28,602 nt of DNA, from positions 1-28,602 of IMG/VR virus record IMGVR_UViG_3300042197_001374; one strand, given 5' to 3'. How positions within the stretch are numbered: position 1 is the first letter of the stretch; each line of letters begins with the position of its first letter. Source of the DNA: a virus. Under the pieces are notes generated by a model. That model was not told where the DNA came from and did no database searches. It saw only the letters and a list, made by a program, of their open reading frames with translations. Below are positions 3,501 to 28,492 of this stretch, piece after piece. The position numbers and the translations under genes are program-made.

Positions 3501-6048
3501 TGTTTAGGTTCTTTTGAATGTCTTTGCCAAGCTTTTCAGACTCAGCAAAAGTGGCAATCTTTCTAATTGTTGAGTTGTTACCCAGCAACGTAGCCATTTT
3601 TCTAATGGCAATACCGTATTGCTGAGGAAGAATTGCTTTGCGACCAGAGAGGCTATCTACGGCCTGTTTAACAGCAGCAGCGTTTTCAAGGGAACTTGTG
3701 TATTTGTTTGCGTTAGTGCTGTAGATCTGAGTAACGTCTTCAGCCAGATCAGTACCGTTACGCAGGTCATCAACGACTTGCTCACCTTGCTTGGTAATAA
3801 TGTCGTTTACACCACGAACAAATTCTTCAATAGTTGCTTTAGTTTCAGTTGGGTCTTGATGGATCTTGAGGTTTTTGTTGGTTTCTTTAATCAGATCAGC
3901 AACAGATCCAACAACTTCATCTAGCTGAGGAGCCTGCTGAAACTCTTTTTCAGCCAAAGCATCAGCATCAATAACCAGCTCACCGTCATCGGTTTTAGTA
4001 ATCGGCACAGGGTTAGCAATCGGCGCAGGGTCACGCGGAAGGCCAATCTGAGGATCAATAGCTTCTTCAGCTTGAGTGGTCACAGGGATCTCATCACCAA
4101 TATCAACACCACCAGGCATCTCAGGAACGATGGGAGCAAGACCGCCATTTTCAATGACTTTGTTGTGGATTGCATCTGTTTGCTGAACAAACATCCGCAT
4201 AAAGTCTTCGTTAAGGTTGCCAGTAGTTACAGCAGCCTCAGCGGCGTTCAGGAGGTCTTTAAGTTCCCCATAGGCTTCGCCGTAAGCATCTTTAATGCTG
4301 TAGTCAAAATCCATCTCATCGAGACGGTTCTCAGCAAATAGTTGCGAGTTACGACTTTCCAGCAGTTGAACACGCTCTGCATCCAGTTCATCAAGAGCGT
4401 TAACCAAAGTACGAGCATCATTCAGACTGTTACGGAATCCGATAGAAGCCGTCATGGTATCGACAGTCAGCTTCTCAAGTTCACCTTCTTTTGCTACACG
4501 TTGAAGGTTTGCACTTTCAAATTGAGAACGCTGAACGTACAAATCTTGCAGCAGTCCAATTTGTTCAGACAGTTCAGTAGCTTTACGCAGCTTGGAACTG
4601 TTTTTACTGGCTCGCTTACCAGTACCAGTGCTCTTGTTAATCCAATCAGGATCTTTTGCAATAGCAGCTTCGTAACCAGCAAGCCGCTCCTGAATCATGG
4701 AACTTTTTGCAGTCAGCTCATCAGCACTTTTAACGCCAAGGATCTTTTGAGCAGAAGCAATATCAACTTCAACTTGCTGCAGCTGAGGAGTCAAATCAGG
4801 AGCACCCTGAAGATCAGCAAGGATGTTTTCAGTTTCAGGCAGCAACTCATTGCGCTTTGTCAGGAACGACTCAGCACCAGCACGACCACCTTTAGCAATG
4901 TCAGCAACGTTTTCTTCAATCTTGCGGTAGAGCTGAGAAGTTACATCACCAAGACGTTGCTCACGCAGTTCATTAGCCCGCAAAAGACCTTCAGCTTCCA
5001 GAGCTTGACGCAGAACAGGTTCGCTTTCATTAGCAGCCTCTTCAAAGGCCTGTGCAACAGGCATACCAGAGGTTGATTTTTTCAAAAACTTATTAGCTGC
5101 ATAAAAACCACCACGAAGCACACCAAGAGCAGCAGCACCTGCACTGACGTTTTTCAGTTGTTCAAAGGCGTAGTCAAACTCTGCAGGAGTTGTAGCCCTT
5201 AGAACTTTGGCTGCAGCAATCCGTTGTTCAGGAGTACGCAGTTTTTGAATCTCATCTAACTGCTTTTGAACAGCAGCAGGAGGAGTAGGAGCAAAGAACA
5301 TTGCATCCTGAATAGCGTTAGGAATAACGTCCTTAACTAGAAAACTAGTAATTACTTTTGCACCATTTTTAATATCACCAGCTTTCCAAATATCAACAAG
5401 TTTGTCTGCAGTTTGGACAGTTTTACCCATCATCGAAGGTGCTTTAAGCAGCTTGCTAACACCCAAATCACCACCAACAGATGCAAACACACCAGCAGCT
5501 AACTGACCACCCCAAGTCTTTGGTTTGATGTTTTTCTTAACAAACTCACTGTCTTCGCTAAACAGAGGGCCCAGAACAGGCACGTTAGGACGGATACCAT
5601 AGCTAAAGCCTTCAGGGTCTTTACCAGTTTTCTGAAGGGCTTCAATGGCTGCCTGAGCGTTCTTTTGACGTTGCTCTACCAGCTTGCGATCAGTCTCCAC
5701 AGTGGGCATACCACCGCCCATAGGACCCGCAGAGAGGGCTGAGCCAAGGTCAATACCTTGAGTCAACGCACCAACTTGCTGAGCCGCTGCAATGGGGTCG
5801 TTAAACAGCTTACGAACAGCTTCAGGTACCACACGAGCAACTTCAGCTCCTGCCTGCTGCATAAAGCGACCAAGATCAAAGCCACGCTTAGGTGCAGCCT
5901 TGGGCTTAGGTTTTGCTACTGGTTTCGGGGTAGCACTTACTTTGGGGGTAGCACCACCTTGATTCCATTCTTGTTGATACCTCTGTTCTGCTTGATCAGG
6001 ATCCGCTACGAAAAGACTTTGACCGTTACGAAGAGGGACGTAGGGCAT
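535..6048 (-). CDS. 16: gp16-like internal virion (ejection) protein, 1837 aa
   Basis: This is the largest gene in the window, placed between the gp15-like gene and the tail fibre exactly where T7 has gene 16. The product is 1837 residues, against about 1318 in T7. Residues 35-55 are a Pro/Lys/Ala-rich linker. The following several hundred residues alternate Ala-rich and charged helical segments that look like coiled coil, and the last part is a folded region without a recognisable motif. T7 gp16 carries a lytic transglycosylase at its N terminus; I see no such catalytic motif here, and the upstream gene instead has an M23 peptidase domain. By position and size it should be ejected into the cell and help build the trans-envelope channel. 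The ATG at 6048 has no good Shine-Dalgarno of its own (see the leader at 6049-6078). Assignment rests mainly on synteny and size. Confidence 0.82.
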   Translation of the reverse strand: MPYVPLRNGQSLFVADPDQAEQRYQQEWNQGGATPKVSATPKPVAKPKPKAAPKRGFDLGRFMQQAGAEVARVVPEAVRKLFNDPIAAAQQVGALTQGIDLGSALSAGPMGGGMPTVETDRKLVEQRQKNAQAAIEALQKTGKDPEGFSYGIRPNVPVLGPLFSEDSEFVKKNIKPKTWGGQLAAGVFASVGGDLGVSKLLKAPSMMGKTVQTADKLVDIWKAGDIKNGAKVITSFLVKDVIPNAIQDAMFFAPTPPAAVQKQLDEIQKLRTPEQRIAAAKVLRATTPAEFDYAFEQLKNVSAGAAALGVLRGGFYAANKFLKKSTSGMPVAQAFEEAANESEPVLRQALEAEGLLRANELREQRLGDVTSQLYRKIEENVADIAKGGRAGAESFLTKRNELLPETENILADLQGAPDLTPQLQQVEVDIASAQKILGVKSADELTAKSSMIQERLAGYEAAIAKDPDWINKSTGTGKRASKNSSKLRKATELSEQIGLLQDLYVQRSQFESANLQRVAKEGELEKLTVDTMTASIGFRNSLNDARTLVNALDELDAERVQLLESRNSQLFAENRLDEMDFDYSIKDAYGEAYGELKDLLNAAEAAVTTGNLNEDFMRMFVQQTDAIHNKVIENGGLAPIVPEMPGGVDIGDEIPVTTQAEEAIDPQIGLPRDPAPIANPVPITKTDDGELVIDADALAEKEFQQAPQLDEVVGSVADLIKETNKNLKIHQDPTETKATIEEFVRGVNDIITKQGEQVVDDLRNGTDLAEDVTQIYSTNANKYTSSLENAAAVKQAVDSLSGRKAILPQQYGIAIRKMATLLGNNSTIRKIATFAESEKLGKDIQKNLNKIMVPVAMLDDSAAAALRDARNLRQIIQGEEIEGLDRVTALSNAADSYQVLMANAKAMNSLFYGVGNALRLFDRRTRLGFSTQDPKALFSEFNQQLAAFGDSSEFADSAAKAAQDAKEEMDQSIGQFFNKVKAGEELTDEEFEGFETLIEKLYQSQGDYERLKELEITGSAVLARLQTGSPLSNPAMIASIPIQAIPEQTVQLLGMAAPVLTNKTAKWLTGKSISAAENLKEARIAQQTLLQLRFTIGEALNATYNRFVYGRAITDPAQAADAAYDLARRSGLRREEAISQDLAATAFKTPFFNYVLEKSEENEGIFDLLNKTRVMTKVFHDYFMPGEAWSKRSAVGQAISLPTTALRGMGVGKESYYPGGEDVNLTIFNQLSAAADELSTSLFVNAGARARAIIEVEDQIAAGMIQPADRATEIANRLNKEASDIYQPIKVGFDQKTIGYAVNDEKMLRLSRAVNLTEELTGPLGSVTDAINTWRQSKFAPLAFFARDIFPIITSPVNGIKRAAMIAYGGEVIQASTDAVRAAASATLKNLPEAVSDLLPPDVKQQIINFESKYMSSDPVERNLAQGALALSVGINSLAFFLVRDGNQDIAGGLENSYRETEGAVEPYTWLIGGQAVPYRYLPVLGNTLAFHATIRDLIEFAPGKDTSGLVALAVASLANTILETPAIAGFDKLIKALTQAGQGDVSRLQKLLSESVAKAGDPYLNLRKVIVQGIDPRKPATPVSKFSTSKFYSRGKIGEKGISLEDFKHSVADSLFATFGIATEYNPIAMLTEATMAAITKDPELRTRSRKALWYGTPGQTVNANNAGVWYPLQAVLGRYWTFPNKMEDDPVAKEMVYNLVSPPRKTLYHSDGVGINDSVLNDFNHFLNSEFTFFANGKQYKGTHKYLKELVTSKEYTQYPGVDSPFKMGPFGLVQDANWNREDNMRSVILKNEVSKLIGIAKEQFLMGDLPGQRYKAPPEMKQMILNNRLTGGSN

Positions 6049-17614: not shown

Positions 17615-18389
17615 TCAAACCACCAGCTGCATTTGATGAACCTGCTGTGATCCCAAGACCAGCAACAGGTGATTGTATTTCCAAATTAGTACGCAGTGCA
17701 GCAGGTGTGCCAGCACGTTGACGAACGCGACTACCAACAGGAGGAGCAGCAGCTCTTTGCTGTTGAATAGCAGAAGTAATCTTTTGCTGTTGCAACATAG
17801 AAGCGGCTGCAGTGCGTTGCTGTGCCATCTGTTGCTCTGCAGTTTGACGAGCAATTAAAGCTTGCTCTTGCATTGAGGCAGCTTGTGCTTGATACGAAGC
17901 TAGTTGTTCACGAGCAATACCAAGTTGAGCCTCTTGTGAAGCACGTTGAGTAGCGGTTTGTTCTTGAAGAGCTTTTGTTTGTTCAGAAAAAGCCAAACGT
18001 TGAGATTCTGATTGAGCCTGCATTTGACGGCTTTGTTCAGCAGCAGACTCACGCATAGCAGTCAACTGAGCAGCAGAGGAAGTCCTGGCTTGCTCCAACT
18101 GTTGACGGCTAGATTCAGCTTGCTGTGTATAAGCAGCTTGAGAAGCTTCAAACTCCTTTTGACGTTGAGCAAGACTGGCACGAAGGTTAGCGATTTGCTC
18201 GTTAACCAGTCGAGTTTGATTTTCAGTCGCTTGCTGGGCTAAAGCATATTGCCTTGCAGCTTGTTCTTGTTGAGCGCGAAATTCATTACTACGCTGTTCA
18301 GCAGCACGAAAACCTTGGTAGGCAGAAACACCAGCTCCAACCAAACCAAGGATCGAAAGAACTGAATTAAGCGAACTGTCTTTAGCCAT
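17607..18389 (-). CDS. Gln/Ala-rich coiled-coil protein with gp7.3-like C terminus, 260 aa
   Basis: Residues about 8-24 (NSVLSILGLVGAGVSAY) are hydrophobic and could be membrane-active. Residues 27-210 are a long Gln/Ala/Arg-rich coiled coil with no Cys or Pro. The tail is basic (SRVRQRAG) and ends in AGGLNV. T7 gp7.3, a small virion/tail assembly protein encoded just before the portal, ends in a very similar GGGINI, and the gene here is also directly before the portal. I therefore suggest a gp7.3-related tail or core role, although the coiled-coil body is much longer than T7 gp7.3 (about 99 aa). GAGGAAAC a few bases before the ATG at 18389 is a good ribosome binding site. Function is inferred from the end motif and position. 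Confidence 0.7.
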   Translation of the reverse strand: MAKDSSLNSVLSILGLVGAGVSAYQGFRAAEQRSNEFRAQQEQAARQYALAQQATENQTRLVNEQIANLRASLAQRQKEFEASQAAYTQQAESSRQQLEQARTSSAAQLTAMRESAAEQSRQMQAQSESQRLAFSEQTKALQEQTATQRASQEAQLGIAREQLASYQAQAASMQEQALIARQTAEQQMAQQRTAAASMLQQQKITSAIQQQRAAAPPVGSRVRQRAGTPAALRTNLEIQSPVAGLGITAGSSNAAGGLNV

Positions 18390-18555
18390 ACTTGGTTTCC
18401 TCTTGGAGCCTGTGCTGCTCTTTAAGATGCCTTACAACTGATACTTGTCCGGCAGTAAACCAGATAAGTTTCTCTTCCATACTAAGGTCAGGTGCTTTAT
18501 CTGGATAAATACCGTCAAGATACTGAATAATTTCAGTTTCGATGTAAGGAATCAT
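18382..18555 (-). CDS. Small hypothetical protein, 57 aa
   Basis: This short gene fills the gap between the two coiled-coil genes. It begins MIPYIETEIIQYLDGIYPDK and ends with QEETKYG; the middle has EEKLIWFTAGQVSVVRHLKE, a likely helix. Its ATG overlaps the stop of the upstream gene as ATGA, and its TAA lies inside the start of the next gene (ATGGCTAA), so it is tightly fitted into the operon. The translation contains no stop and looks like a compact globular or helical peptide. I do not recognise the family. Confidence 0.7.
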   Translation of the reverse strand: MIPYIETEIIQYLDGIYPDKAPDLSMEEKLIWFTAGQVSVVRHLKEQHRLQEETKYG

Positions 18556-25272: not shown

Positions 25273-25474
25273 CGAGAAAGACCTTAAGGTTTCGGCTGTA
25301 GCAGAAGTCAAGGAAGTCCTCAAGTTGGTCGTAGGTGAGCTGGTTGCAGGCGTCATTGGACTTGAAAAAGGACTGACACACACGCTTAGCGGTTTCAGTG
25401 GCAGCAAGGGCTGTCACTTTAAGGGAGTTCATCTCCGAGACATGAACGTCAAAAGTCGGATTCAAAATGATCAT
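25232..25474 (-). CDS. Small protein between helicase and polymerase, up to 80 aa
   Basis: This frame bridges the 176-bp gap between the helicase stop and the polymerase start, overlapping them by 26 and 41 bp. The product runs from MIILNPTFDVHVSEMNSLKV through a helical Ala/Thr-rich part (TALAATETAKRVCQSFF) to LTYDQLEDFLDFCYSRN and a short basic end. An ATG at 25432 gives a 66-aa version. Neither start has a well-spaced Shine-Dalgarno, although GGAG touches the second. I do not recognise the family. The gap would otherwise be unusually long for this compact genome, which supports a real gene. Confidence 0.6.
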   Translation of the reverse strand: MIILNPTFDVHVSEMNSLKVTALAATETAKRVCQSFFKSNDACNQLTYDQLEDFLDFCYSRNLKVFLDGNVRRGDQCSQD

Positions 25475-27080
25475 CGAATTGTTGTGGCTTACTACCGCCA
25501 GAAAGCTCCAACATTCTGCCTGTAGTTTCGTTGTATTTCACAGTGCCTGATACGCCGCACCAACCTGTGAAACGATTTTTAAGAACTCGTACAGTTGTTC
25601 CTTCTGAATCGTTCTCAGACTGCTGATTGCGTTCAAGACCAATACAGATGTCACTAAGTTGGCCGATAGCAGCGCTACCGCGTAACTGTGAAAGGGATGT
25701 TTGAGCACCGTTCTCGTGGCCTTTATCGCCAGTAGGGCGGCGTAAGTGTGACACCAAAAGCATCCCGCAGCCTGTTTCTTCAACAAAGCTTCGGAGTTTT
25801 GTCATCGTTTGATCAATCGCCCTACGTTCGTCTCCTTGGTCCAAACCTGAGACAAGAATCGAGAGGTGATCGAACACAATCCAATTACACCCGCAACCAC
25901 TAACCAGATGCCGTATACGGTTAAGCAGAACGGTAGGGTCAAGAGAGCCAAAATGATCGTACAGAAATAACCGACCCGTTCCGAGAGTCCGATTGAAGGC
26001 CTCCTCAATTTGTCCATCAGTGAAGTGACCTCGATCAATGTGGACAGGGTAATTAAGATCCATACCGACGAAGCGCCGAGCAGTACGTCGAATGTTCTCT
26101 TCCAAAGCGACATAACCCACTGTTTCGTTTTGCCTTGTAAGCAGGTCATACGCAATTTCAGAAACAAACGTACTTTTCCCGATACCAGATCCAGCCGTGA
26201 TAGTAACGAGCTCGCCCTTACGCAGCCCGTGAAGCTTGTCGTTTAGGAACTTGTAGGGATACTCAGCGCTCTGCGTTTTGGGGTCTTCTAGGACCATCTG
26301 GAGCAGTTTGCTGCCACTGATGATTCCATCTGGTTCGTACTCAGCAGCAGTCCACACCATCTGCATGATGGCTTTGCTGTCCCCTGCTACCAAAGCTTCG
26401 TTGGCATCCTTGTACTTCTCGATCTTGCCGATCTTACCCACGCGAGGCGGAAGTAACTGAATGGCGTTCTTCGCTGCTTTTTGACCGTGATCATCGTTGT
26501 CAAAACACAGGATGATCTCTTCAAACTTCAGTAGCCAATCGAGATTACTCCTGATTGATTTCTCCGCAGAGTCAGCGCCATTCGGTAGCGAGACGCACGG
26601 CCAGCTCTTACGAACTGTGGCGTAGCTGAGGCAGTCATACTCACCCTCAAAGATAACCAGCAGCTTGCCTCCACTCCACTTTTCCTGCCCGAGAAACGTA
26701 TGGTCAGGATTGGTTCCATGCTGGACAAAGTTCTTGTTTGGCTTACGAATCTTGTAGCCAGTAAGACGACGTTCTTTGTCGTAGATGGGCCAGAAGTAAG
26801 CCTCACTGTCGCCATAGGTACCCTTGAAGTATCCAAAGAGTTTGCACGTCTCTTCGTGAATACCCCGACTTGGGATGGCGTTGTATGAACCAACCAGGGG
26901 TTCGATCTCAGTGTGGGAGTCATTGGTTGCAAAGCTGGACATGGTGAAGGAAGAGGAAGAACCTGAAACGTGGTAAGTACAACCGGGCGTGAAGCAGTGC
27001 TCACCACCGTCGTCGTACAGAGCAACGTTGTCGCGTGACCCACATTTGGGGCAGTTCAACCTGCGGACAACGCGGGACAT
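25449..27080 (-). CDS. 4: Primase-helicase, gp4-like, 543 aa
   Basis: The domains follow T7 gp4. A zinc-binding domain has C10, C13, C29 and C34. A TOPRIM primase has E146 in VIFEGEYD and D194-N-D196 in LCFDNDD. A RecA-type helicase has Walker A AGSGIGKS (296-303), Walker B IVFDHLSIL (401-409), and the LLVSHLRR motif (441-448). The C terminus, FDDHFESDF, is acidic and ends in Phe, like the T7 gp4 tail that docks on the polymerase. I chose ATG 27080: a GGAGGT lies 9 nt upstream inside a hairpin, and the zinc site follows at once. An in-frame ATG at 26942 sits where T7 starts its short gp4B form but has no purine-rich ribosome site. The protein unwinds DNA and primes the lagging strand. Confidence 0.95.
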   Translation of the reverse strand: MSRVVRRLNCPKCGSRDNVALYDDGGEHCFTPGCTYHVSGSSSSFTMSSFATNDSHTEIEPLVGSYNAIPSRGIHEETCKLFGYFKGTYGDSEAYFWPIYDKERRLTGYKIRKPNKNFVQHGTNPDHTFLGQEKWSGGKLLVIFEGEYDCLSYATVRKSWPCVSLPNGADSAEKSIRSNLDWLLKFEEIILCFDNDDHGQKAAKNAIQLLPPRVGKIGKIEKYKDANEALVAGDSKAIMQMVWTAAEYEPDGIISGSKLLQMVLEDPKTQSAEYPYKFLNDKLHGLRKGELVTITAGSGIGKSTFVSEIAYDLLTRQNETVGYVALEENIRRTARRFVGMDLNYPVHIDRGHFTDGQIEEAFNRTLGTGRLFLYDHFGSLDPTVLLNRIRHLVSGCGCNWIVFDHLSILVSGLDQGDERRAIDQTMTKLRSFVEETGCGMLLVSHLRRPTGDKGHENGAQTSLSQLRGSAAIGQLSDICIGLERNQQSENDSEGTTVRVLKNRFTGWCGVSGTVKYNETTGRMLELSGGSKPQQFDDHFESDF

Positions 27081-27120
27081 AAAAAGAGACCTCCAGGTAA
27101 CCATGCACCCCGGAGGTCTC
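27081..27120 (-). terminator. Hairpin plus U-tract overlapping the gp4 ribosome binding site
   Basis: On the minus strand GAGACCTCC and GGAGGTCTC pair perfectly over nine bases and can extend to twelve with one G-U wobble. Five T residues follow, then directly the ATG of the helicase gene. It has the form of a rho-independent terminator or attenuator. Its 3' arm is also the GGAGGT Shine-Dalgarno of gene 4, so folding would hide the ribosome site. RNase III processing, as in T7, is an alternative role. Confidence 0.7.
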
Positions 27121-27146
27121 GGTGTCCTTTCACTTGTCCGGCAGAA

Positions 27147-27163
27147 TCATAGCACTGCTATGA
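27147..27163. repeat. 17-bp palindrome at the endonuclease I stop codon
   Basis: TCATAGCACTGCTATGA has eight-base complementary arms around one central base. It overlaps the last codons of the endonuclease I gene and lies 27 bp from the hairpin before gene 4. It could be an operator-like site or a small RNA hairpin; nothing further supports a role. Confidence 0.4.
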
Positions 27164-27547
27164 CCAGCTAGACGGGATGATCGGACCCTCACACCAGGGC
27201 ACACTGTATTTGTCACACCACCGGGCGTAGGTCATACTCCCTGTTTTGGTGAGCTTTTGATGCGGTTTTTGTAGGACCATTCGGATATCGACTGATGGGT
27301 GCTGCTCTTTGAACAGCTTGATCAGCCTCCGATCTTCCGCATCAAAGTAACCCTTCACCTCAAGCACTACGCCGTTGCTGAGAACGAAGTCAGGGGTGTA
27401 GCTACGAGGGATCAGCAAGTCGTACTTGTACTGCTCATACTCCCAGCTAACCCCTGATGCGTTGAGGTGGTCGGCTACTTTGCCTTCAAAGCCCGAACGA
27501 AACCCATTTGCTTGGCGTTTGCCGTACTTATGGAATCGTCGGGCCAC
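27158..27547 (-). CDS. 3: Endonuclease I (Holliday junction resolvase), gp3-like, 129 aa
   Basis: The PD-(D/E)xK active site of T7 endonuclease I is conserved with almost the same spacing: E21 (FRSGFEGKV), D53 (YTPDF) and E63-V-K65 (VLEVKG). The downstream EQHPSVDIRMVL also matches T7 (EQHPELDIRIV). It is 129 aa against 149 in T7, lacking the basic C-terminal extension. The enzyme cuts branched DNA and helps degrade host DNA and resolve phage concatemers. The start is GTG at 27547, four bases after the SSB stop; a weak GAG is nearby. The next gene begins after a 77-bp gap containing a palindrome and a hairpin. Confidence 0.93.
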   Translation of the reverse strand: MARRFHKYGKRQANGFRSGFEGKVADHLNASGVSWEYEQYKYDLLIPRSYTPDFVLSNGVVLEVKGYFDAEDRRLIKLFKEQHPSVDIRMVLQKPHQKLTKTGSMTYARWCDKYSVPWCEGPIIPSSWS

Positions 27548-27551
27548 TTAC

Positions 27552-28175
27552 TCAAAAGTCAGGATCTTCGCCAGACACAGTAGCAAGTTCTTTCAGGTTT
27601 GGTTTGGATTGCTTAAACCCAGACTGCTTGGTAAAAGCTTTGGTGATATCAAAGTCACCACGATCCTCACCAGCAGTAGTCACAGCCTTCAACACCTGAA
27701 TACCCTTGGGGCACAGCCGGATGCCACCCCGAGGTGCTTTACGAGGGATGTACATCGGTTTGATGGCTACAAGGATCTCAGAGCCCTCACGCAGCTTCAA
27801 ATCAGGAGCCAGAGGTTGCAGCTCAGTGTCTACCACAGGCAAAGGGAACTCCCCATAGCTGGGTTTAGCCGTCAGTTTGATTACGGCTGAGCCGTCTTCA
27901 GACATTTCAAACGGAGCGTCGTAAAAACTTTTCTTCCCCGTCTGGTCACGATACCAGGCACATGCCGCGTCGTATGCCTCAGAGATTTCTTCAACAATCT
28001 CCTCTGCGTCTTGTACAAGAACCTTGATACGGAAGTCACACGGTTCATTGTTGTAGGTAGGGATTTCGGTGAAGCTGGGGATCCAGCCAGTCAGCGTGCC
28101 TTGAATTTGCACAGGACTCAGTGTCGAAAGGACCCACAGAAGGTACCTGCGGTGCATACGCCAAGGAGAGGCCAT
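27552..28175 (-). CDS. 2.5: Single-stranded DNA-binding protein, gp2.5-like, 207 aa
   Basis: The gene holds the gene 2.5 position, directly before endonuclease I and primase-helicase. The fold fits an OB-type SSB: QIQGTLTGWIPSF, a helix with EEIVEEISEAYDAACAWYRD, FYDAPFEMSEDGSAVIKLTA, a basic strand (VAIKPMYIPRKAPRGGIRL) and a C-terminal tail ending SGEDPDF. T7 gp2.5 also ends in acidic residues plus Phe, which contact the polymerase. The tail here is less acidic. Similarity elsewhere is modest, so the call rests on position, helix/strand order and tail. The ATG at 28175 follows an AAAGAG that is part of the repeat array. The first 20 residues (MASPWRMHRRYLLWVLSTLS) look unusual; the true start may be downstream. 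Confidence 0.82.
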   Translation of the reverse strand: MASPWRMHRRYLLWVLSTLSPVQIQGTLTGWIPSFTEIPTYNNEPCDFRIKVLVQDAEEIVEEISEAYDAACAWYRDQTGKKSFYDAPFEMSEDGSAVIKLTAKPSYGEFPLPVVDTELQPLAPDLKLREGSEILVAIKPMYIPRKAPRGGIRLCPKGIQVLKAVTTAGEDRGDFDITKAFTKQSGFKQSKPNLKELATVSGEDPDF

Positions 28176-28184
28176 AGGACAGCT

Positions 28185-28350
28185 CTTTAAGTGGCCCCTT
28201 TGAGTGGCTCTTTAAGGGCCCTCTAAGTACCTTTAAGTACCTTCTTAAAGAGGTTCTTAAAGAGGTCTCTAGCCGTCAACTTAGAGGGCACTTAAAGAGG
28301 CACTTAAAGAGTCTTCTTAAAGAGGTCTTTAGCCACCACTTAAAGGGCCA
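28185..28350. repeat. Mirror-oriented array of about 12 copies of a CTTAAAG-type repeat
   Basis: Five copies read CTTTAAG (or CTTTGAG, CTCTAAG) on the plus strand, starting at 28185, 28198, 28210, 28221 and 28231. Seven copies read CTTAAAG (one CTTAGAG), starting at 28244, 28256, 28280, 28291, 28303, 28316 and 28339. Degenerate copies near 28267 and 28327 fill two gaps, giving a period of about 12 bp. The extended consensus is CTTAAAGAGG, and TTCTTAAAGAGGT occurs three times exactly. The array occupies the whole space between two divergent genes. Candidate roles are a bidirectional regulatory region, an origin, or an array like the short repeats beside T7 genome ends. Confidence 0.85.
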
Positions 28351-28354
28351 TTTA

Positions 28355-28492
28355 ATGAATCCTTTGGATCCCAGTCAAGTTCCAGTAACAATGACTGAAG
28401 AAGAACTAGCTGAGTTCTTGGATGAAATGTTGGAGCGTATTGAAGCTACAGAAGACGATCAGTACGATCCTGACGTTTGGGGAGAAAAGTGA
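28355..28492 (+). CDS. Small acidic protein, plus strand, 45 aa
   Basis: This is the first gene on the opposite strand. It begins MNPLDPSQVPVTMTEEELAE and ends DQYDPDVWGEK. The middle (MTEEELAEFLDEMLERIEAT) should be a strongly acidic helix. AAAGGG lies about 8 nt before the ATG and comes from the last copy of the repeat array. The next gene starts inside its stop (GTGA), which supports real translation. Very small acidic proteins are common in early regions of T7-like phages, where several inhibit host enzymes, but I do not recognise this one. Confidence 0.7.
   Translation: MNPLDPSQVPVTMTEEELAEFLDEMLERIEATEDDQYDPDVWGEK

Follow-up and report, generated by a model that had tools for sequence, protein, structure and literature searches.

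A two-way CTTAAAG heptamer array and its matched partner in freshwater relatives of cyanophage P-RSP2: candidate origin or early-leader arrays

A freshwater relative of a marine cyanophage carries, at the head of its replication operon, an array of CTTAAAG-type heptamers in two opposed halves (array 1), and most of its relatives carry a second array of the same word between the TerL gene and thyX (array 2). Array 1 is conserved, its inner core is nearly invariant, the two arrays are coupled within genomes, and the word recurs beside T7-type RNA polymerase (RNAP) and TerL genes in other phages. The best reading of these sequences, which we hold tentatively and with somewhat less than even confidence, is that arrays 1 and 2 form a pair of T7-type origin or early-leader arrays; the heptamer probably marks where phage DNA copying or early reading begins. 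In phages without a T7-type RNA polymerase, this raises the question of how a T7-type replisome is started. A comparative and experimental test is made possible by finding one word in matched arrays beside TerL and ahead of the replication operon, and once more where the RNAP and SSB genes meet in other T7-type phages.

Array 1 and its gene setting

The window, meaning the whole stretch of DNA analyzed here, is a virus record of 28,602 bases from a P-RSP2-like cyanopodovirus, whose nearest cultured phage is Prochlorococcus phage P-RSP2. Its minus-strand genes include those for a gp2.5-like single-stranded DNA-binding protein (SSB), an endonuclease, a T7-type primase/helicase, DNA polymerase, exonuclease, ribonucleotide reductase, portal, capsid and tail proteins. 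The features around array 1 are as follows.

25449..27104, minus strand: T7-type primase/helicase (PHROG 239)
27158..27547, minus strand: endonuclease, next after SSB in the replication operon (PHROG 945)
27552..28112, minus strand: gp2.5-like SSB gene (PHROG 112), with a longer open reading frame from an ATG at 28175
28134..28152, minus strand: leader element CCGCAGGTACCTTCTGTGG / GCACCGCAGGTACCTTCTGTGGGTCCTTTC between array 1 and the SSB start, noncoding and very conserved in the alignment of relatives, possibly a short hairpin
28185..28237, minus strand: SSB-proximal half of array 1 (CTTTAAG side), five heptamers at 28185, 28198, 28210, 28221 and 28231, orientation kept across 27 unique relatives
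28244..28345, plus strand: distal half of array 1, seven CTTAAAG heptamers at 28244, 28256, 28280, 28291, 28303, 28316 and 28339
28183..28324: imperfect inverted repeat of the two halves, with 46-nt arms that are 85% complementary
28355..28492, plus strand: small divergent open reading frame for an acidic product of 45 aa, whose initiation region abuts array 1

The SSB gene probably starts at the GTG at 28112 rather than at the ATG at 28175, since aligned relatives begin there and this start is separated from array 1 by a conserved leader; array 1 would then be situated ~73 bp upstream of SSB instead of flush with it. Array 1 precedes SSB, endonuclease, primase and polymerase directly, by the replication-gene boundary at which a T7-type primary origin would be expected. 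The part of the map missing from the window, taken from relatives, reads TerL - thyX - HNH - small genes - divergent small-gene block - array 1 - SSB, and the divergent small genes near array 1 are found in relatives too; the one conserved small protein encoded near array 1 is shared with P-RSP2, which has no arrays. The window also has two intergenic copies of CTGCCGGACAAGT on the minus strand, one at 27144 upstream of the primase gene and the other at 18455 in the 18389-18552 gap.

Allowing at most one mismatch, array 1 consists of 12 heptamers, nine exact and three with a single mismatch (28198, 28221 and 28280). Successive steps are 13, 12, 11, 10, 13, 12, 24, 11, 12, 13 and 23 bp, with 24 and 23 being double steps and the mean close to 12, and the orientation switches at 28238-28243. 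These values bear out the first-pass annotation, which had described twelve heptamers at ~12-bp steps, five pointing left and seven right, with the switch near 28240. The density is far beyond chance: the densest 172 bp of the window holds 12 sites, whereas the densest stretches in 200 first-order Markov simulations of the window averaged 3.9 sites and never exceeded 7, and YTTWAAR occurs nine times in array 1 against 1.1 expected, a count reached in 0/200 local dinucleotide shuffles. Because CTTAAAG and its reverse complement differ at the central base only, heptamer direction rests on that base together with the flank (GAGG/CCTC); the resulting split is non-random (5/5 vs 0/7, p = 0.0013). 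An isolated CTTAAAG at 25417 was rejected as a further site, since this position is polymerase coding sequence in relatives and the word is not conserved. The cyanobacterial Pho box was likewise set aside as an identity for the heptamers, the bases following TTAA not fitting.

The inverted arrangement gives array 1 considerable folding potential, with a stability much greater than that of dinucleotide shuffles (z = -8). This would suit a structured or translational leader in which the repeats work at the RNA level, folding into hairpins or enhancing translation ahead of thyX and SSB, and in some T7-like phages the words do occur close to the ribosome-binding site, within the 5' leader. When whole units are shuffled, however, stability is similar in 7/8 genomes (z -1.8 to +0.7; L017 is at z = -3.9), and compensatory change was seen in 0/68 pairs. 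On these two results, we no longer regard a large hairpin or cruciform as the selected feature; the fold follows from repeating units that are themselves nearly palindromic. Rfam returned only sub-threshold matches to long-hairpin models, among them microRNA precursors far below the gathering score, which we regard as artefacts of long hairpins. As the opposite orientation of the two halves is also hard to explain for one leader, such a role in RNA appears very improbable.

Conservation and the partner array after TerL

Freshwater and estuarine relatives have array 1 as far out as ~67% SSB identity, most of them with 7 to 13 YTTWAAR sites; it is weaker in L024, L110, L117, L121 and L124. The two-way split is kept as well: in 27 unique relatives, exact copies number 52 vs 4 in the distal half and 41 vs 1, in the opposite sense, in the proximal half, although these loci are related and the counts are not independent. 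Each half points toward the gene it precedes, as had been proposed from the window sequence, and the prediction of a conserved array held for both the array and its orientation. Absence from close relatives with the same neighbors had been put forward as grounds for refutation, and here the outcome is divided: close relatives do carry the array, but it is absent from the P-RSP2 clade despite the same gene neighbors and a divergent AT-rich promoter-like region. Since P-RSP2 and its close relatives share both the neighbors and the replication genes, the array is not indispensable for this replisome. The lineage is represented entirely by metagenomic fragments apart from P-RSP2, the member without the array.

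Within one close clade, array 1 is more variable than the SSB leader (17/148 vs 2/107 columns, p = 0.003), and this variation is unevenly placed. In that clade, outer heptamer columns vary in 8/18 cases and inner TTWAA columns in 1/45 (p = 9e-5). A near-fixed TTWAA with drifting outer C/G is how redundant sites behave when only their core is required.

The second array, not seen in the first-pass annotation, lies outside the window in the gap between TerL and thyX and is matched to the window array. A conserved TTGACA promoter-like element leads into it, with the start of the array at the element's -10 region and its end near the thyX start.

L013:1741-2000: array 2
L006:1480-1760: array 2
L029:731-925: array 2
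L027:1181-1345: array 2

In the window's clade, arrays 1 and 2 have the block CTTAAAGAGGTCTCTAGCCGT(T/C)AACTTA in common, and the repeat flank differs in other lineages, for example TTTTAAAACGG or GGTTTAAAGGG. Across eight lineages, the pairing of array 1 with array 2 of its own genome was scored by shared k-mers; only 1/40,320 permutations, the observed one included, was as good at k=8 and at k=9, with 6 as good at k=7 and 4 at k=10. Since same-genome arrays share more k-mers than arrays of different genomes, the two evolve together, whether through exchange or because a single factor acts on both. On one contig (L053), CTTAAAGATA has recently been amplified in tandem within array 2, to six copies spaced 10 bp apart, indicating that an array can grow by slippage.

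Co-variation of this kind is also what an operator array would produce. A phage or host protein might bind the heptamers cooperatively, controlling three operons together: through array 1 those of SSB and the divergent small genes, and through array 2 the thyX/early operon. Such a switch would be needed by a lineage that has no RNA polymerase of its own. An invariant core in redundant sites is consistent with protein binding, and flanks that vary by lineage while the two arrays stay matched resemble co-evolution with one protein. This operator function is a close rival to the origin pair, because array 2 overlaps the promoter-like element and the orientation of array 1 follows transcription. 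Against it, PHROGs and Pfam searches of the small genes near the arrays turned up no known regulator, initiator or DNA-binding family. Furthermore, no sigma-70-like consensus promoter was found at array 1 of the window, the orientation of array 2 is mixed outside the window's clade, and the heptamer turns up again in unrelated T7-type phages with an RNAP of their own. Taken together, we consider an operator possible but somewhat doubtful; it and an origin may not be mutually exclusive.

Recurrence in T7-type phages and the origin reading

We scanned 2.9 million viral contigs for runs of three CTTAAAG words spaced 10-15 bp apart; this gave at least 120 matches, and the matches listed form 59 clusters. 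Ten of these 59 lie within 500 bp of a T7-type RNAP, TerL or SSB gene, compared with 1/76 and 0/27 clusters for two control heptamers (1/103 jointly); for the matches listed, the difference gives p = 2e-4, or 0.001 when the window phage's own family is left out. The other 49 of the 59 clusters among the matches listed have no placement beside RNAP, TerL or SSB. In a cluster of T7-like phages, mostly 39-41 kb in size, the words are located ~50-62 bp after the RNAP gene, with a phage-type promoter ahead in those read. In L185, L212, L242 and L258, the array occupies exactly the RNAP-SSB gap and surrounds an AT-rich palindrome in those read, L185 having four words on one flank and three on the other. 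Further clusters from the scan lie directly after TerL, and in S-SRP01 the RNAP gene abuts SSB. On sequence comparison, the places of the arrays in the window's lineage, namely the equivalent of the RNAP/SSB boundary and the position directly after TerL, are those where T7-type phages have theirs.

Two other viral groups (L158, L201, L203, L206, L230 and L270; L157, L170, L183 and L190) have an AT-rich stretch flanked on either side by CTTAAAG clusters, which in L158 and L203 are located between terminase-side and opposed small genes. A literature search found no paper on arrays of the CTTAAAG heptamer.

The T7 primary origin comprises phi1.1A/phi1.1B and the AT-rich region after gene 1, and it needs a T7 RNAP promoter. 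The T7 AT-rich stretch after phi1.1B contains CTTTAAG and CCTTAAG words. Array 1 thus resembles this origin in lying near the RNAP/SSB module and in its AT-rich stretch with repeated words of this type, of which T7-like phages have three regular copies there. It differs in having 12 copies in two opposed halves and in standing directly before SSB rather than after an RNAP gene. An A/T-rich cluster is described as part of the T7 origin in PMC12839067, with Saito et al. 1980 as its source on the primary origin.

The position of array 1 before SSB, primase and polymerase, together with the recurrence of the word beside T7-type RNAP and TerL genes, lends support to the origin option raised in the first-pass annotation, insofar as sequence comparison can. 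At the head of the SSB-endonuclease-primase-polymerase operon, array 1 occupies the place of the RNA polymerase/SSB junction in other cyanopodoviruses. Transcription beginning at or beside each array would cross the AT-rich heptamers, whose repeated TTWAA cores may serve as sites for melting and protein loading. Replication could thereby be started, with array 1 as the equivalent of the primary origin and array 2 as that of the right end, and its start would be tied to early transcription of the flanking operons.

Several points count against an origin. The P-RSP2 clade has the replication genes but no array, GC skew in a near-complete relative has no clear turning point, 49 of the 59 clusters among the matches listed have no placement beside RNAP, TerL or SSB, and the T7 origin requires a T7 RNAP promoter, which the window's lineage cannot use. 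A search for T7-type RNA polymerase (PF00940) gave no match in P-RSP2, G001, G002, G007 and the shorter contigs tried, whereas the T7 positive control matched; with no T7 RNAP gene, the lineage differs from T7 in having no T7-type promoter use. In addition, the 5'-leader words by the ribosome-binding site of T7-like phages also fit a translational or leader role. In its fullest form, the origin reading would hold that a T7-like cyanophage lineage without an RNAP kept, expanded and duplicated an origin array, and that two co-evolving arrays start replication and early transcription with host RNA polymerase and a putative array-binding protein. We rate this full scenario as unlikely. For the origin pair as such, we infer that replication starts at the arrays, that host RNA polymerase takes part and that one or more proteins bind there.

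Mycobacteriophage cluster A stoperators are, like the heptamers of array 1, short asymmetric sites oriented relative to transcription; according to PMC9283540, they are spread across the genome and serve the immunity repressor, whereas the present sites are confined to two dense arrays and no repressor was found in the phage. Unlike a Rep-bound iteron origin, array 1 has no cognate Rep-type initiator gene found near the arrays.

Genome ends

Arrays of a similar heptamer next to the T7 terminal repeats had been mentioned in the first-pass annotation, correctly: in T7, CCTAAAG is repeated at 13-bp steps from 175 to 338, directly after the left terminal repeat. The T7 arrays SRL and SRR share several properties with arrays 1 and 2, including a heptamer that matches CTTAAAG at 6/7 bases, a 12-13 bp step, a length of ~160 bp, ~12 copies, and paired arrays of one word per genome with one on the TerL side. 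The resemblance is not superficial, given that CTTAAAG arrays recur in T7-type phages. However, the T7 copies have a single orientation and abut the terminal repeat, whereas array 1 is two-way (5 vs 7, conserved) and lies at an internal operon junction. To our knowledge, no function has been settled for the T7 terminal arrays.

By analogy with the T7 pair around the terminal repeat, arrays 1 and 2 might bracket a concatemer junction and guide terminase or end processing. Array 2 follows TerL directly, and in Syn5 the order is TerL - thyX - 237-bp terminal repeat, by which an end may lie between the two arrays. The same order suggests that the end of the window's lineage comes after thyX, kilobases from array 1, which itself heads the replication operon. 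P-SSP7, with its mapped 206-bp terminal repeat (PMC3350473), and Syn5 have no such array at their terminal repeats. Nor did the relatives show any significant BLAST match to the terminal repeats of Syn5, P-SSP7 or T7.

The P-RSP2 record has near-identical ends of 513 bp at the same junction as array 1. We rejected this redundancy as a terminus; it is probably an unmerged assembly overlap, since sister records show the same artefact elsewhere (P-GSP1, 357 bp, in capsid genes; P-SSP3, 475 bp). Contig ends are commoner after TerL but scattered, without a pile-up at a sharp single position, and were also discarded as a terminus signal. The earlier suggestion of a genome end at array 1 is accordingly not upheld, and a terminus or packaging function for the arrays seems quite unlikely. 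The near-complete relative G001 (43.4 kb) has both ends inside the capsid gene.

Several minor observations concern the same region. The cyanopodovirus GenBank records HQ332139.1, HQ332140.1 and HQ332137.1 have apparently unmerged end overlaps of 357-513 bp, which may be mistaken for terminal repeats. Downstream of thyX/HNH, a conserved noncoding element, GGTTTTGCTTCAGATTTTTGAGCACTAGTTAAC, is near-identical across diverged contigs (L013 ~2900-2980, L109, L110, L062 and others) and is, by synteny with Syn5, a candidate genome terminus. An imperfect palindrome, ATTGAGAATGAGTCGCAAT, which resembles a Fur box, is repeated in L013 (~3010 and 4680-4780) and L029 (~3915). Finally, positions 38-79 of the Syn5 terminal repeat contain two copies of TATTGAGAATC.
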